Assembly (NCBI GenBank): GCA_946537565.1
Contig: CAMNFW010000005.1
Span: 1-21,445 of the forward strand
Length of the DNA stretch: 21,445 bases
From: an uncultured Ruminococcus sp.
GTDB lineage: Bacteria; Bacillota; Clostridia; Oscillospirales; Ruminococcaceae
Direction of reading: 5' to 3'
Position 1 is the first letter of the stretch. Each line of letters starts with the position of its first letter. Positions 11,295 through 18,051 of this stretch are shown piece after piece. A program made the position numbers and the translations under genes. The notes under the pieces were generated by a model. That model was given only the letters and a program-made list of their open reading frames with translations, ran no database searches and had not been told where the DNA came from.

Positions 11295-13283
11295 TTATTT
11301 AACTTTTATTTTTTCGGCAACATCACTGCTTCGGTGGTCGATAGCAGCTGTAAGTAATTTCTGAGCCTCTTCAAAAGAAACTCCTTCAAGCTGTGCTGCA
11401 GCCATAGACTGATGACCGCCGCCGCCCAGCTCTTCCATAATGACCTGAACGTTCACTGCGCCGAATGAACGGGCAGAGATATTGACCGTGCTGCCGGTTT
11501 TATACAGCACAAAGGAGGCATCGACATCTGATACGCCCAGCAGTTCATCAGCAGCCTGCGGAGCAACAATTCTGATATCATCGGATTTAAAGTCAGCAAC
11601 AGCTATAGCGCAGTTGTTATGGAGCTTAGCGGAGGCGACTATCTGAGTTCTTCGTCTGTAGGAATCCAGTGAATTGGAGAACAGAAGCTTGACAGCAACT
11701 GTATCAGCTCCCAGTTTTTTCAGGTAAGCAGCAGCCTCAAAGGTACGCACACCGGTTCTCATCACGAAGTTTTTGGTATCCAGCATGATACCGGAGAGCA
11801 GAGCATCAGCATAAACCGAAGCGATTTTTTCTTCAGCCGGATACTGGAAATACTGGATAATTTCGGTGACCATTTCGCAGGCAGATGAAGCATAGGGTTC
11901 ATGGTGGAAGATAACAGCATTGTCAATAAAATTAACTGTTTTTCTATGGTGGTCGATAACAACAACAGATTTAGCCTTGTCATAAAGCTCACGGCTTTCG
12001 ATGAAGTCCTTGTTATGTGTATCAACAACGATCAGAAGATCATTTTGTTCGATCATAGAAACAGCGGCGGAGGGAGTAATAAAAAGGTCTGAATTGGTTT
12101 TTTTCTCTACTCTGTCGATCAGCTGAGGGGAGAGGCTTTTATTTCTGTCCACAGCGATGTGAACTTCCTTGCCCAGCAGTTTAACGGCACCGGCGATACC
12201 GCAGGCAGCTCCCACAGAATCCAGGTCACCGAAGCGATGCCCCATAAGGAAGATCTTACCGGAGCTGCTAATGAGATCCTGGAGAGCGTTAGCAATGATA
12301 CGGGATTTTGAACGGGACATTTTTTCAACGCCCTTAGAACCACCGCCGAAGAATCTATAACCGTTCTCAGTTTTGACAACAGCCTGATCGCCGCCTCTTC
12401 CAAGCGCCATATCAAGGCATTGACGGGCGATTTTTTCGCTTTCGGCGAGGGTAGAAGCGCCCTGTCCCACACCGATAGAGAAGGTGAGGGGATATTTTGA
12501 AGCGATGATGATATTTCTTGCCTCGTCGAGTATTTTGAATTTTTCGCTGATAATGAGTTCGAGCCAGCTGTTTTCGATGACGGCGAAGAAGGTATTGGAA
12601 GAAGTTTTTTTGATGAAGCCGTTGGTGCCGTTCATGAAATTTTCGATAAGCTTTTCAGTTTCGACAGAGACCTGAGCTTTTTCGCTTTCCTTGGCATTCT
12701 GGAGAATTTCGTCATAGTTGTCGATAGTGAGAATGACCACATTTGGGCGGGAGTCCTCGGATTGTTTTTTAAGGGTGAGATAAGAGGTCTCGTCGTGAAA
12801 ATAGATAATGAGGAAAGAAAGACCGTTCTCGTTGAATTTTTCGCCGGTCACACGGTAGGTATAGCCGCTTATATGGCAATAGCTGAAGCCCTCACGCTCC
12901 AACATATCAAGATCAGCTTTGACATAGCCTTCAAAGTCCAGACCATAGACATCTGAGCCCAGGCTGATTTTTTCGCTGAAGGTCTGATTGTACCAGACGA
13001 AGCGTTTTTTGTCGTCAATAACAGCCACAGGTGCTGGCAGGAAATTCATATAATCTGCGGCAGAACTTTCCAGGTGGGAATTCATTTTTGAGATATGCCG
13101 CATAGCATTTTTTGAATAATAAACCGAAAGGATAATGAGGGCTGCAAAAAGTACAGCCGAACCGGCAAGCAGAATAGTGCCGCAGGTATTGTTATAATAA
13201 TAAACAAGAAGACTGCCGGCAATTGAATTCAGCAAAAGCACAGCCAGCAGAGAAAAAAACACTGCCGGGAATTTTGGCTTCAT
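11295..13283 (-). CDS. gdpP: c-di-AMP phosphodiesterase GdpP (DHH-DHHA1)
   Basis: 662 aa, full length for GdpP. It hydrolyses the second messenger c-di-AMP, which controls potassium and osmolyte balance and cell-wall stress, at the membrane. Order: two membrane helices (about 7-28 and 35-56), a PAS-like sensor domain (about 80-170), a degenerate GGDEF domain without the GGDEF motif (about 180-310), the DHH domain with GHRFGDLDS (His349, Asp353, Asp355), Asp421 in VVDTHN, DHH at 445-447 and Asp502, then DHHA1 with GGGGH at 620-624. All metal-binding residues are present. The ATG has a strong AAGGAGG 11 nt upstream. It lies 57 nt after rnjA with no terminator and 183 nt before rplI. Confidence 0.96.
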   Translation of the reverse strand: MKPKFPAVFFSLLAVLLLNSIAGSLLVYYYNNTCGTILLAGSAVLFAALIILSVYYSKNAMRHISKMNSHLESSAADYMNFLPAPVAVIDDKKRFVWYNQTFSEKISLGSDVYGLDFEGYVKADLDMLEREGFSYCHISGYTYRVTGEKFNENGLSFLIIYFHDETSYLTLKKQSEDSRPNVVILTIDNYDEILQNAKESEKAQVSVETEKLIENFMNGTNGFIKKTSSNTFFAVIENSWLELIISEKFKILDEARNIIIASKYPLTFSIGVGQGASTLAESEKIARQCLDMALGRGGDQAVVKTENGYRFFGGGSKGVEKMSRSKSRIIANALQDLISSSGKIFLMGHRFGDLDSVGAACGIAGAVKLLGKEVHIAVDRNKSLSPQLIDRVEKKTNSDLFITPSAAVSMIEQNDLLIVVDTHNKDFIESRELYDKAKSVVVIDHHRKTVNFIDNAVIFHHEPYASSACEMVTEIIQYFQYPAEEKIASVYADALLSGIMLDTKNFVMRTGVRTFEAAAYLKKLGADTVAVKLLFSNSLDSYRRRTQIVASAKLHNNCAIAVADFKSDDIRIVAPQAADELLGVSDVDASFVLYKTGSTVNISARSFGAVNVQVIMEELGGGGHQSMAAAQLEGVSFEEAQKLLTAAIDHRSSDVAEKIKVK

Positions 13284-13340: not shown

Positions 13341-15155
13341 TCAGGTTTCCATGATAATAGGCAGGATCATGGGGCTGCGCTTAGTTTTCTGATAGATATA
13401 ATCAGAGAGAGCGTCCCTGAGTTTACCCTTAAGGGTGTTCCATTCTTTCAGCTCAGCATATGAGCAGCTGTCGAGGGTGCTGTTAAGGATAGCCTTAGCC
13501 TCGTCCATAAGCTCTTCGGACTCACGGACATAAACAAATCCACGGGAGATTATATCTGGTCCGGCAATGACCTCATTTGTTGCACGTTCGATGCCTATGA
13601 CAATTATAATAAGACCATCCTGAGCCAGGTGTTTTCTGTCACGGAGAACGATAGAGCCTACATCGCCCACTCCGAGACCGTCAACAAGTACACGACCTGA
13701 GGGAACCTGTGACACTACCTTCATGGTAAGACCGTCGGTTTCGATAACATTACCGATCTCTGCGATAATTATATTCTCTTTTGGCAGACCCATTTGAATT
13801 CCCAGATCTGCGTGTTTTTTCAGGTGTTTATATTCACCGTGAACAGGAATGAAGAATTTAGGCTTAGTGAGAGCCAGCATGAGCTTCAGTTCTTCCTGAC
13901 AGGCATGACCTGAAACGTGGACCTCATACATTGCCTCATAAACGACCTCAGCGCCGGATTTCATCAGTTCATTGACAACTCTTGTCACATATTTTTCATT
14001 GCCTGGGATAGGAGTTGCAGAGATTATAATGAAGTCCATTGGAGTGATGTTAACTTTTTTATGATCGTTCATAGCCATTCTGGTCAGTGCTGACATAGGC
14101 TCACCTTGACTGCCGGTGGTTATGAGCACGATGCGTTCATTCTCATATCGGTTCATAAGTTCGATGTCTATGATAACACCGTCCGGAACATCGAGGTAAC
14201 CCAGTTCAATGGCGGTGTTTATAACATTGATCATACTTCTTCCGAATATAGCGACTTTTCTGTTATAGCGGACAGCGCAGTTAATGATCTGCTGTACCCT
14301 GTGGATATTTGAAGAGAAGGTGGCGATGATAATACGCTTGCCCTCGCCTTTTTTGAAGAGCCTGTCGAAGGATTCACCGACAGTGCGTTCAGAGTGGGTA
14401 TAGCCTGGTCTTTCGGCATTAGTAGAGTCAGCCATAAGAGCGAGGACACCCTTGCTGCCCAGCTCACCGAAACGTGCAAGGTCGATGATCTTGCCGTCTA
14501 TAGGTGAATAGTCAACCTTAAAGTCACCGGTATGAACAATGACACCGGCGGGGGTATGGATAGCCATACCTACGGAATCGGGGATAGAGTGGTTGACCTT
14601 GATGAATTCAACAGCCATACATCCCATTTTCACGGTCTTTTTCGGCTCAACGATATTGAGCTGGACTTTGCCGAAGAGACCCTGTTCACGGAGCTTGCCT
14701 TCGATAAGACCGATCGTCAGCCTTGTGGCATATACAGGCACATTGACTTTTTTAAGGAGATAAGCCAGACCGCCGATATGATCCTCGTGGCCGTGAGTAA
14801 TAACGATACCTCTGATCTTGTCGGCATTTCTTTCAACATAAGTAAAGTCCGGGATAACTATGTCAACACCGGGCATATCAGCATCCGGGAAGGCGAGACC
14901 GCAGTCGAGAATGAACATATCGTTTGAACATTCAAACACGTTCATATTTTTGCCGATCTCATTGAGACCGCCCAGGGGTATGATTCTGACTGGGGTACGT
15001 TTTACTTCCTTAGGCTGACGGGATTTTTTCACCTTTTCAGCAGGAACATCTGCGGCAGTATCCGCAGCTTTTTTGCGGCTGGATTTTTTTGCAGGCGCAG
15101 CAATGCTTCCGGCAGCTGATCTGCGGACTTTTTTTGTGGTTTCTTTTTCGTTCAC
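13341..15155 (-). CDS. rnjA: Ribonuclease J
   Basis: 604 aa from GTG at 15155, preferred over GTG at 15167 because GAGG of the upstream GTGAGG lies 6 nt before it. RNase J is a metallo-beta-lactamase/beta-CASP nuclease with 5'-3' exo- and endonuclease activity in mRNA decay and RNA maturation. Seen: RIIPLGGLNEIGKN at the start of the core, the zinc motif HGHEDHIGG (121-129), GYTHSE in the beta-CASP region, TTGSQGEP, HVSGHA and FIPVHGEYKHL. About 52 N-terminal residues are lysine/alanine/serine-rich and probably disordered, more than in Bacillus RNase J1. It is the first gene of the cluster, about 283 nt downstream of a consensus promoter start, and gdpP follows after 57 nt. Confidence 0.95.
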   Translation of the reverse strand: MNEKETTKKVRRSAAGSIAAPAKKSSRKKAADTAADVPAEKVKKSRQPKEVKRTPVRIIPLGGLNEIGKNMNVFECSNDMFILDCGLAFPDADMPGVDIVIPDFTYVERNADKIRGIVITHGHEDHIGGLAYLLKKVNVPVYATRLTIGLIEGKLREQGLFGKVQLNIVEPKKTVKMGCMAVEFIKVNHSIPDSVGMAIHTPAGVIVHTGDFKVDYSPIDGKIIDLARFGELGSKGVLALMADSTNAERPGYTHSERTVGESFDRLFKKGEGKRIIIATFSSNIHRVQQIINCAVRYNRKVAIFGRSMINVINTAIELGYLDVPDGVIIDIELMNRYENERIVLITTGSQGEPMSALTRMAMNDHKKVNITPMDFIIISATPIPGNEKYVTRVVNELMKSGAEVVYEAMYEVHVSGHACQEELKLMLALTKPKFFIPVHGEYKHLKKHADLGIQMGLPKENIIIAEIGNVIETDGLTMKVVSQVPSGRVLVDGLGVGDVGSIVLRDRKHLAQDGLIIIVIGIERATNEVIAGPDIISRGFVYVRESEELMDEAKAILNSTLDSCSYAELKEWNTLKGKLRDALSDYIYQKTKRSPMILPIIMET

Positions 15156-15438
15156 TAAAAACCTCACTTTCAGTTTTACTGGACAGGCTGAGAGAAGTTG
15201 GAGCCTATCCTTATGACGGGTGGTGAATGGAGACTCAGGGAGGTCAGCACAGATACATCGGATTGAATAGACGACAGCTGATTTATACTGAGCCGGTAAA
15301 ATGCTCTGTTAAAAGGGGACAGAGACTTTTTTAAAAAATATATCTTAATGACTGTTCAGCAGTCAATAAAGCCTTTGGTCTTAAACTGATAACATGAATC
15401 GTTGTATACGCAAATAAAACTGCATAAAATATTAATAT
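15156..15438 (-). other. Long 5' leader of rnjA (no gene)
   Basis: Gene-free stretch between rnjA and its promoter. On the minus strand it contains hairpins GACTG-N5-CAGTC (15364-15350) and CTCTGT-N9-ACAGAG (15324-15304). Its last 90 nt are pyrimidine-rich, with ACCTCCC that could pair with the GAGGT Shine-Dalgarno of rnjA. A 14-codon ORF (15425-15381) starts soon after the transcription start but has no ribosome-binding site. I do not recognise a known riboswitch. Self-control by RNase J is a possibility only. Confidence 0.5.
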
Positions 15439-15444
15439 ACTATT

Positions 15445-15473
15445 ATTATACAAAAGCTGGAGCGATATGTCAA
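15445..15473 (-). promoter_or_regulatory. Consensus sigma-A promoter for the rnjA-gdpP-rplI-dnaB-tilS-ftsH cluster
   Basis: On the minus strand: TTGACA (15473-15468), exactly 17 nt, TATAAT (15450-15445), a perfect match to both consensus boxes. Transcription would begin near 15438. It lies between the stop of the phosphohexomutase-like gene (15560) and rnjA, so the cluster has its own strong promoter. Confidence 0.9.
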
Positions 15474-15477
15474 TACT

Positions 15478-15503
15478 AAAAAAACAATGTTTTCAGAATT
15501 GTT
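15478..15503 (-). terminator. Weak terminator candidate upstream of the rnjA promoter
   Basis: On the minus strand AACAAT-N9-ATTGTT is followed by a run of T (seven T counting the end of the stem). The stem is only 6 bp and AT-rich, so termination would be weak. It is placed right after the phosphohexomutase-like gene and just before the next promoter, where a terminator would be expected. Confidence 0.35.
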
Positions 15504-15559
15504 AAATTTCCACAGCAATGAAAAAAGGTGACATTATATAGTTTGTAATTGATAACATA

Positions 15560-16645
15560 TCAGGAGTTCGGCTGAAGTCTGGCAGTCCATATCCTGCAAA
15601 GCTCAGCGGCAGTTTCCATTGAGTAAGCCTGGGCGGTCAGGGAAATACGCTGCCTGCCGCTTCGGGAGACAATGATCCGCCCATTTTTATCGGGAATAAC
15701 AGTATCCTCCGGCAGCTTATCCAGGACGGAAAAAACAATTTCCCGGCGCACAGAGCGGAAGTCCGGCATCTGGCTTATGATATTGAAAAAGAGCTGCCGC
15801 CGGGAAGCAAGCTGACAGCAGAGATAGAGCATATCATGGAGATAGCGCTGTTCAAGAGCTTGTCTGGGTGCCGGGGAAGCGGAGCTGAAAGGTATAGCTT
15901 TTCTGTTGAAACTGGTTAAAATCTCGTCAGCGCAGCAGTGAAAATTCTCCGGCAGATAGATCTCACTGCCTTTGTCCGTAAGCATAACAGCACCGGCTAA
16001 GATAAGCTTATCCTGTGGGATATAGCCATAATTCAAGGAATAAGCATTGACTTTTTGTCCGTTGTCGGAAACCTGAAAAACCAGCTCCTCGTCATTTTCA
16101 TTAAAAAAATTAAGCCAGAGAGAGCGCATAGCTTTGCTTCCGCAGCTTACTCCGGCAGGTAGTTTGCTGTTATGATCAGGTATTGAATCCGCAATATTAC
16201 TGGTGTAAATGCAGCTGAAAGAGGTAACAGTGTGTATTCTTCCGCATTTTCCTGAGACAGGTGCAGGGGCTGAGGAAAGGAGTTTTCTCAGCATATCCCT
16301 GTTCATGACCTCGCCGCAGCTTCCGAAAAATGAAAACGTAAGTCCCTGACCGCCTACAAATATACCGCAGTCACATCCCAGCAGCGGAATGCTGAAACGA
16401 AAAGACTGCATTTCTGTGTTGTCACAAAGATATACGGTTATTCCGGCTTCCGAGATTCCGCAGCAGAGGGCATATACAATATTCAGCCGCCTGAAGGCTT
16501 CACAGCCAACGCATATCCTCCTGAAATTTCCGGCTATGCACCGTCCAAATTCAGATGCTTCCTTAGAACTTACCGCAGCCTCAGATACTGCCTCACAGCA
16601 GCTGTCACGAAAACTAAAAAAATTATTTTCTCCTAAATATCCCAT
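15560..16645 (-). CDS. Degenerate alpha-D-phosphohexomutase-like protein (probable pseudoenzyme), cysteine-rich
   Basis: 361 aa, about 80-90 shorter than GlmM/PMM/PGM. I recognise the fold, not a named gene. Residues about 27-125 follow domain 1 of phosphohexomutases (a helix like ELA-x-x-GR, an IGRDTR-like strand reading VGCEAF, then an alternating helix-strand pattern), but where the catalytic ASHNP serine loop should be there is a shortened GGQGLTFSFFG. Domain 2 is shortened, and its metal loop DGDR reads DNGQK. The C-terminal part matches well: DMLYLCCQLASRRQLFFNIISQ resembles the helix before the last domain, and GRIIVSRSGRQRISLTAQA sits where the phosphate loop RPSGTEP should be. All three active-site loops are thus altered, so mutase activity is unlikely. 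It has about 19 cysteines (5%), several as CC pairs, and no membrane segment. AGGAGG lies 6 nt before the ATG. alsT-type gene upstream, rnjA promoter downstream. Confidence 0.65.
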   Translation of the reverse strand: MGYLGENNFFSFRDSCCEAVSEAAVSSKEASEFGRCIAGNFRRICVGCEAFRRLNIVYALCCGISEAGITVYLCDNTEMQSFRFSIPLLGCDCGIFVGGQGLTFSFFGSCGEVMNRDMLRKLLSSAPAPVSGKCGRIHTVTSFSCIYTSNIADSIPDHNSKLPAGVSCGSKAMRSLWLNFFNENDEELVFQVSDNGQKVNAYSLNYGYIPQDKLILAGAVMLTDKGSEIYLPENFHCCADEILTSFNRKAIPFSSASPAPRQALEQRYLHDMLYLCCQLASRRQLFFNIISQMPDFRSVRREIVFSVLDKLPEDTVIPDKNGRIIVSRSGRQRISLTAQAYSMETAAELCRIWTARLQPNS

Positions 16646-16679
16646 GATAAACCTCCTGTGGTTTTTATTTTATCATGGG
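16641..16679 (-). promoter_or_regulatory. Hairpin burying the start codon of the phosphohexomutase-like gene
   Basis: An 11-bp perfect inverted repeat, CCCATGATAAA and TTTATCATGGG, with a 17-nt loop. In the minus-strand mRNA the start codon lies inside the 3' arm and the AGGAGG Shine-Dalgarno is in the loop. The 5' arm carries its own ATG that opens a 3-codon ORF ending in TAA. The geometry suits translational control (RNA thermometer- or protein-dependent). A DNA-binding operator is the alternative. Confidence 0.5.
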
Positions 16680-16803
16680 CAGTTCACAGGTTCTTATTCA
16701 AAGGCAGCTGCTGGTGAAAATGTCGAATTACTGCCTGATATGTTGAATGAGAAGGACTTGTTTATGATAAGGTCACATATAAGTAAAAAGAATGATAAAG
16801 TCT

Positions 16804-18051
16804 TTATTCAGAATCTTTATCGGAGCTTAGAGATTTCTTAGGGATCTTTCTCATCAGCAAAACAAGAGCCAGCAGGTTAGGTATTGCCATAAGACCATTG
16901 AAAATATCTGAAATTGTCCAGACTGTATTCATTGCAGCTATTGCACCAGTCGATGCAGCGGCAGCGAAGATCACGGAAAACAGCCTTTTATAACGATTGC
17001 CTGTAAGGTATGAAAATGAGGTCTCACCGCAATAATACCAGCCGATAACCGTGCATAGAGCGAATACATTCATTTCAGCTGCCAGGAATAAATCGGCGTT
17101 ATTGCCAAGAATACTGCTGAAAGCTGCAGAAATATCACTGCCGGCACAAAGAAGAGCAAGAGCAGTTAAGGTGCAGCAGAACATATCGATCAGCACTTCC
17201 GCCATACTCCATGCTCCTTGTGAGACAGGTGAAGAGCTTCCGGCAGCACTGTGAAGAGCCGGGGAACTGCCGAGACCTGCCTCATTTGAGAAGATGCCTC
17301 GTCTTATACCAACAGAAACAGCATATCCGCATATGCCGCCAGCTGCCTGTTTTAAGCCGAAAGCTCCGCAAAAAATATCCGGGATCACCATTGGGAGCCT
17401 GTTTCTGTGCAGGAACACAACTGCGAGACAGACGATAGAATACAGCAGTGAAGCTGCCGGAAGAAGATATGCAGCTGCCGCACCGATACGCTTAGCGCCT
17501 CCGGAAACGATAAGAAGTATCACAGCGAATGCGGCTGCTGCCAGCCAGTATCTGTTTATGTTTATACAGCTGAGCAGACTTTCTGATGCGGAATTTACCT
17601 GAACCATTCCACCCATTCCGAAAGCTGCCAGAACGCAGAAAACAGAAAATACAGCTGCCAGCTTCCGGCTTCCAAGCCCGTTTTTAATGTAAGCCGCAGC
17701 GCCTTTTACCGTGTCATTGCTGTACTCAACTGACAGGTAGTTTTCAGCGAAAACCAAAGCCATTCCCAGAAATGCCGACACCCACATCCAGAAAAGCGCT
17801 CCGGCACCTCCTTCGAGGATTGCAGCAGAAACTCCAACAATGTTACCGGTTCCCATTGCGGTTCCCAGTGACATACACACAGTTTTCAGCTGAGAAATGC
17901 CGGAATTATTGGATTTTTCGCATCTTATCAGATTCACTGTTCTTAGCTGGATAAATCCCAGGCGGAGGGTATAAGCGAGACCAGTTCCCAGCAGCAGAGT
18001 TATAAGACCATTTCCCCAGATCTGGTCTCTTATATTTTCGATCAGATTCAT
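16804..18051 (-). CDS. Sodium/amino-acid symporter, AGCS (alanine/glycine:cation symporter, AlsT-like) family
   Basis: 415 aa, highly hydrophobic with about 10-11 membrane segments. It imports a small amino acid with sodium; AGCS members carry alanine, glycine or, in some AlsT proteins, glutamine, and the substrate cannot be told from sequence. Family signatures are clear: GTAMGTGNIVGVSAAILEGG (63-82), GALFWMW (84-90), and GIRRGIFSNEAGLGSSP (248-264). It is shorter than the usual 440-490 aa, mainly through compact loops, with no sign of a frameshift. The ATG at 18051 has GGTGA 5 nt and AAGGAC about 10 nt upstream. A 158-nt gap separates it from the phosphohexomutase-like gene on the same strand, with no clear terminator, so they may share a transcript. 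Confidence 0.92.
   Translation of the reverse strand: MNLIENIRDQIWGNGLITLLLGTGLAYTLRLGFIQLRTVNLIRCEKSNNSGISQLKTVCMSLGTAMGTGNIVGVSAAILEGGAGALFWMWVSAFLGMALVFAENYLSVEYSNDTVKGAAAYIKNGLGSRKLAAVFSVFCVLAAFGMGGMVQVNSASESLLSCININRYWLAAAAFAVILLIVSGGAKRIGAAAAYLLPAASLLYSIVCLAVVFLHRNRLPMVIPDIFCGAFGLKQAAGGICGYAVSVGIRRGIFSNEAGLGSSPALHSAAGSSSPVSQGAWSMAEVLIDMFCCTLTALALLCAGSDISAAFSSILGNNADLFLAAEMNVFALCTVIGWYYCGETSFSYLTGNRYKRLFSVIFAAAASTGAIAAMNTVWTISDIFNGLMAIPNLLALVLLMRKIPKKSLSSDKDSE

Follow-up and report, generated by a model that had tools for sequence, protein, structure and literature searches.

One gene of the window, by which we mean the whole analysed stretch of 21,445 nucleotides from an uncultured Ruminococcus sp. 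(contig CAMNFW010000005.1), encodes a protein that seems to be a phosphohexomutase (PHM) without any of the catalytic loops of these enzymes. From which ancestor does such a protein descend, is it still maintained, and what could it do? The features of the locus are given in Table 1, and the protein is referred to below as the pseudo-PHM.

Table 1. Features of the pseudo-PHM locus in the window.
Feature	Position	Strand	Remark
Free-standing pseudo-phosphohexomutase gene	15560..16645	-	361 aa
Ribosome-binding region	16646..16657	-	AGGAGG, then TTTATC, then ATG
Degenerate serine loop GGQGLT, residues 98-103 (ASHNP in PHMs)	16337..16354	-	from residue numbers
Degenerate metal loop DNGQKVN, residues 194-200 (DGDxDR in PHMs)	16046..16066	-	from residue numbers
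Degenerate phosphate loop SRSGRQR, residues 327-333 (RPSGTEP in PHMs)	15647..15667	-	from residue numbers
C-terminal helix ETAAELCR, residues 344-351	15593..15616	-	from residue numbers
rnj (RNase J)	13341..15167	-	conserved downstream neighbour
gdpP	11295-13283		beyond rnj
agcS-type sodium:amino-acid symporter	16804..18051	-	conserved neighbour upstream in Ruminococcus-group loci
Sigma-70 consensus match, 12/12	15445..15473	-	between the pseudo-PHM gene and rnj; pattern scan

The four-domain PHM fold spans the whole protein in a confident structure prediction. The phosphohexomutase fold and domain order that had been proposed from the sequence alone are thus supported by fold comparison and by the structure model, and the underlying observation is confirmed as real. 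The phosphoserine loop (T/S)ASHNP and the metal loop with three aspartates (DGDxDR) were not found in the 361-aa protein, nor were the sugar loop GExSGH and the phosphate loop RxSGTxP in its alignment. All the catalytic loops are therefore changed, including the three that the sequence-only reading had described as altered, and these losses are conserved, the canonical serine, metal and phosphate motif patterns being matched by none of 27 close homologues. Compared with GlmM and PMM/PGM, the fold and the domain order are alike, whereas the window protein lacks the catalytic loops and has 361 aa against about 450-480. From these motifs we infer that the mutase activity has been lost. That it persists with unusual loops, as the fold retained over the full length could suggest, is extremely improbable: the serine loop, the metal triad and the phosphate loop are all absent, and canonical PgcA-type and GlmM-type proteins are present in other genomes of the genus. 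The protein has no match in Pfam. A match to MraZ in NCBIfam (E 0.0032; 17.1 bits, the cut-off being 162) and ADP-ribosylation-factor-type matches from a PDB profile search (E 0.27 at best) were taken as chance.

A second, GlmM-like PHM lineage was also observed in the genus, with a member in the genome of the window itself (L080:541-1896, minus strand; G000:C37) and relatives in L095-L098, L100, L101 and L105. Its loops show a graded change, from GSHNSAEYNG/DGDADR in L095-L097 to ASHINAEFSG/DGAAER in L098, L100 and L101, and read GAHSDTEYSS/DGSGER in the genome of the window, where the contig also carries ruvC-, ruvA- and ruvB-like genes (assigned by eye). A PF02878 search of 12 genomes gave three matches in ten of them and two in the genome of the window and in one other; canonical GlmM is absent from the two matches of the former, perhaps because the assembly is 90% complete.

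The relatives of the pseudo-PHM point to its ancestor. Using two short motifs of the pseudo-PHM, 78 loci (L001-L078) were picked from a genome contig collection; one of these motifs is the C-terminal ETAAELC, which biases the conservation seen in L001-L078, and further homologue protein sets and one set of regions were picked without the two motifs. Twenty of the 78 loci encode fusion proteins of 633-825 aa. Six of these were typed with Pfam: hexapeptide repeats are present in all six, and four have a strong NTP_transferase match (E 3e-20 to 4e-48); this domain reaches only E 0.043 in L055 and is undetected in L057. The state of the nucleotidyltransferase loop was judged by eye, a sequence pattern being over-strict (L073 and L074 escape it), and the glycine-rich nucleotide loop is lost on this basis in five of the 20 fusions (L053, L054, L055, L057 and L064). 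By eye again, the nucleotidyltransferase half appears at various stages of decay in eight fusions (L053, L054, L055, L057, L060, L062, L064 and L067), with the glycine-rich loop lost or altered and the lysine displaced or missing. L053 and L057, two of the decayed fusions, branch in the phylogenetic tree as sisters of the Ruminococcus short forms, but the SH-aLRT value of 87 does not reach the starred level. The PHM domain of the window protein is homologous to that of the fusions and lies at the orthologous position before rnj-gdpP; its catalytic loops are likewise non-canonical. Unlike the fusions, the 361-aa protein contains neither the N-terminal NTP_transferase domain nor the hexapeptide domain, none having been found in it, and its serine loop is shortened further.

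Such fusions extend well beyond the family. A survey of the phylum covered 398 genomes (own genome included), of which 31 have a match at E 1e-26 or better, and 29 of the 31 match rows sit in frames of 743-935 aa. We compared 89 relatives of one phylum fusion, whose names include Bacillota, Chloroflexi and Rubrobacter, and the canonical serine, metal and phosphate motif patterns match none of the 89. The serine column contains S in 70 sequences, and the next column contains P, not H, in 70. In the metal loop, the second aspartate is D in 2/89 and the third position is E in 87/89. In the phosphate loop, the arginine position is L in 82/89 and the serine position is D in 88/89. Several sources name such proteins mannose-1-phosphate guanylyltransferase/phosphomannomutase; we take this fusion family to be CDD cd05805 (MPG1_transferase). 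Judged from these motifs, the PHM domain is already non-canonical in the sampled fusions, before the short forms arose. The former description as a dead GlmM/PMM/PGM consequently stands for the PHM fold and the dead loops, but not for the origin: the protein is probably the detached C-terminal domain of a nucleotidyltransferase-hexapeptide-PHM fusion whose PHM domain had already become non-canonical, and not a GlmM/PMM/PGM inactivated in the present lineage.

How often the front half disappeared was examined at the level of the family. A PHM-domain profile was run over 297 family genomes (own included), and its matches are distinct from GlmM. The E-value is 2.2e-30 or lower in 114 genomes, and the following matches begin at 7.1e-26, the exception in this gap being the second piece of one strong match. 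The 183 other genomes have no strong match, and the gene is thus far from universal. Among the 114 matching genomes, 78 have an open frame of at least 600 aa and 36 a frame of less than 500 aa. Not all of these 36 are real short forms, since five are at contig ends (G048, G122, G139, G155 and G206) and two have an internal stop (G224 and G296). The genus of the window is represented in the sample by five genomes (own included), all with the short form. No nucleotidyltransferase-hexapeptide open reading frame was found beside the short forms in 20 regions and six loci, the upstream side being invisible in three of these 26. The genome of the window (assembly 90% complete) has three NTP_transferase matches, one of them a 357-aa protein that is ManC-like by eye; a nucleotidyltransferase partner may thus be encoded elsewhere in this genome. 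A tree of 77 rows contains 40 short forms and 36 fusions (L062 counted as a fusion), L124, which is cut by a contig end, being uncounted. On this tree the two states need five changes, of which at least two are forced by starred branches. A topology that holds all short forms in one clade is rejected, with p-AU 1.8e-5 for the 77 rows and 0.015 for 54 of them. These counts cannot by themselves separate loss from gain, and the changes are read as repeated loss because the outgroup rows are fusions.

The chromosomal position was analysed in the same loci. The gene rnj is found within 900 bp downstream in 43 of the 52 Ruminococcus-type loci (five cut by contig ends, four without), in 16 of the 20 fusions (two cut, two without) and in four of the six other short forms (two cut). 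It is usually followed by gdpP, rplI and dnaB. Two of the loci, L047 and L050, come from one genome record set. The short and the fused forms share one chromosomal address and are positional orthologues. Upstream, agcS precedes the pseudo-PHM gene in 48 of the 52 Ruminococcus-group loci, with a spacing mostly of 30-110 bp (158 bp in the window), whereas the distance to rnj, measured to the longest rnj frame, ranges from 55 to 725 bp across loci. The 12/12 sigma-70 site is a consensus match only, the pattern scan having returned six sites where 5.2 were expected for this region, and it suggests that rnj may have its own promoter. Given the short agcS spacing, the wide rnj spacing and this promoter match, co-transcription with agcS is likelier than with rnj. 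In the window, the gap between the pseudo-PHM gene and rnj is 392 bp (15168-15559), and the sigma-70 site lies about 280 bases ahead of the rnj start as listed, so that a transcript begun there would carry a long rnj leader. The single Rfam match in 15100-16850 has E 0.84, below the cut-off of its family. A divergent gene pair with matches to the bacterial PH domain PF03703 (18278-20221, plus strand; the first match is below the curated cut-off) was also observed, and adjoins agcS in most Ruminococcus-type loci.

This neighbourhood invites an alternative in which the pseudo-PHM regulates c-di-AMP, either by docking, like GlmM, on the cyclase CdaA or by acting on GdpP. Indeed, gdpP is two genes downstream in most loci, and GlmM binds and inhibits CdaA (PMC8573169). 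We nevertheless consider this role improbable. The lineage is that of the fusion and not of GlmM, the promoter match lies between the pseudo-PHM gene and rnj, and neither rnj nor gdpP was found in the 12 fusion regions taken from outside the family. The GlmM residues D151, E154 and D195, given as CdaA contacts in the same paper, correspond to s, s and g in the family profile. This last test is weak, as the complex with CdaA still formed when these residues were replaced by alanine, with no effect on it or a marginal one (PMC8573169). From five of the 12 outside-family regions, seven neighbours were typed with Pfam: two are GT4 proteins with starch-synthase-like matches, two are GH57 branching enzymes, two are GH94 proteins (1930-2207 aa) and one is a GalT-like protein. 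These neighbours suggest a supply of nucleotide sugars for glucans, in which the dead PHM domain would be a regulatory part.

The loss of the catalytic motifs and of half of the ancestral protein, together with the lack of a strong match in most family genomes, would also fit a decaying relic on its way out. Selection was estimated by the Nei-Gojobori method over close pairs, 57 of 68 pseudo-PHM pairs being kept with dS under 1.5. The median dN/dS of the pseudo-PHM is 0.103 (highest pair 0.272), and the medians of the neighbours are 0.081 for rnj (41 pairs), 0.097 for gdpP (38), 0.122 for agcS (51) and 0.099 for bPH_b (37); as the pairs overlap, levels are compared here without a formal test. 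The pseudo-PHM is under purifying selection in line with its neighbours, as expected from the earlier proposal of a maintained and not decaying gene. The frame is intact with AGGAGG before the ATG, as also claimed at first sight, and 34 columns are invariant among 28 homologues. With the confident fold, these data make the relic very improbable. The PHM fold, the altered loops, the absence of canonical motifs in the homologues and the purifying selection together designate a maintained pseudoenzyme.

Glu18 is invariant in 28/28 homologues, and Cys17, Cys168, Arg174, Trp177, Gln191, Ser193, His236, Cys276 and Cys350 are identical in 27/27 close homologues. Except for Cys350, the residues of this second series are mostly replaced in 61 fusions, so that the close homologues have invariant residues largely missing from the fusions. 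Conversely, Gly34, Gly63, Asp271, Pro294, Glu344, Ala346, Glu348 and Cys350 are retained in at least 57 of the 61 fusions, and the four last, in the C-terminal helix, rank among the best-kept residues of the family. In an alignment with canonical GlmM of the genus, Glu18 falls on the arginine of the DGxRG loop and Cys168 on the cysteine of DCANG. In the structure model, Cys17, Cys168 and Gln191 are within strands, and Ser193 and His236 are just past strands. The close homologues thus hold invariant residues capable of chemistry (Cys, His, Gln, Ser), and a new enzymatic activity could be envisaged, for which the old cleft would have been rebuilt (Glu18 in place of the DGxRG arginine, Gln191, Ser193, His236) to catalyse a different reaction on a phosphosugar or a nucleotide. 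As the metal triad and the phosphate loop are absent, we regard this as unlikely.

We conclude that the pseudo-PHM is probably a maintained non-catalytic protein descended from a nucleotidyltransferase-hexapeptide-PHM fusion. The ancestor would have joined a sugar nucleotidyltransferase, a left-handed hexapeptide helix and a PHM domain with already non-canonical motifs. Some fusions near the lineage of the window have a decayed nucleotidyltransferase, and the N-terminal half is absent from more than one branch on which the dead PHM domain persists, in most cases at an unchanged chromosomal address and with purifying selection in the Ruminococcus group. The protein probably has a non-catalytic job, having been kept under strong selection after the loss of the other half, and it would act by binding. 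Since the lineage of the window keeps only the putative regulatory part of the fusion, a ligand-binding or scaffold role is proposed, by analogy with GMPPA and PGM5. More tentatively, a sugar-phosphate or nucleotide-sugar, a protein partner or both might be bound by the remodelled inter-domain cleft and the conserved C-terminal helix, and the protein might then serve as a scaffold or regulatory subunit, as the inactive GMPPA does for GMPPB. No description of this protein was found among open-licence PMC papers.

Two known proteins can be compared. PGM5, the inactive phosphohexomutase of vertebrates, also has a PHM fold and is no mutase (PMC7761743), the loss of activity in the window protein being deduced from its motifs. 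According to the same paper, PGM5 retains its substrate binding and active site; in contrast, the alignment reveals no intact substrate-binding loops in the window protein, whose loops are gone and whose origin differs. GMPPA is described as a non-catalytic regulator of GMPPB (PMC11228364), and offers an analogy, a dead relative of a sugar-nucleotide enzyme retained as a regulator, as proposed here. However, GMPPA is a nucleotidyltransferase paralogue and not a PHM, and no homology is claimed.

These proteins form a natural series that leads from the fusion enzyme to the free pseudoenzyme, with a dead PHM domain beside an intact nucleotidyltransferase, then beside a decaying one, then alone. 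The seemingly useless part is the part retained, a pseudoenzyme domain outliving its catalytic partner. It is conceivable, though still doubtful, that the functional core of the fusion in Ruminococcus and its relatives is the dead domain, and that after repeated decay and deletion of the nucleotidyltransferase its putative rebuilt cleft (Cys17, Glu18, Arg174, Trp177, Gln191, Ser193, His236 and Cys276) serves to sense a new ligand or to hold a partner. If this reading is true, the "bifunctional guanylyltransferase/phosphomannomutase" fusions would be nucleotidyltransferases with a built-in regulatory PHM domain, and not mutases. Our results suggest that the "/phosphomannomutase" half of this common annotation in Bacillota and Chloroflexota is wrong, an error that would affect reconstructions of the GDP-mannose and glucan precursor pathways.
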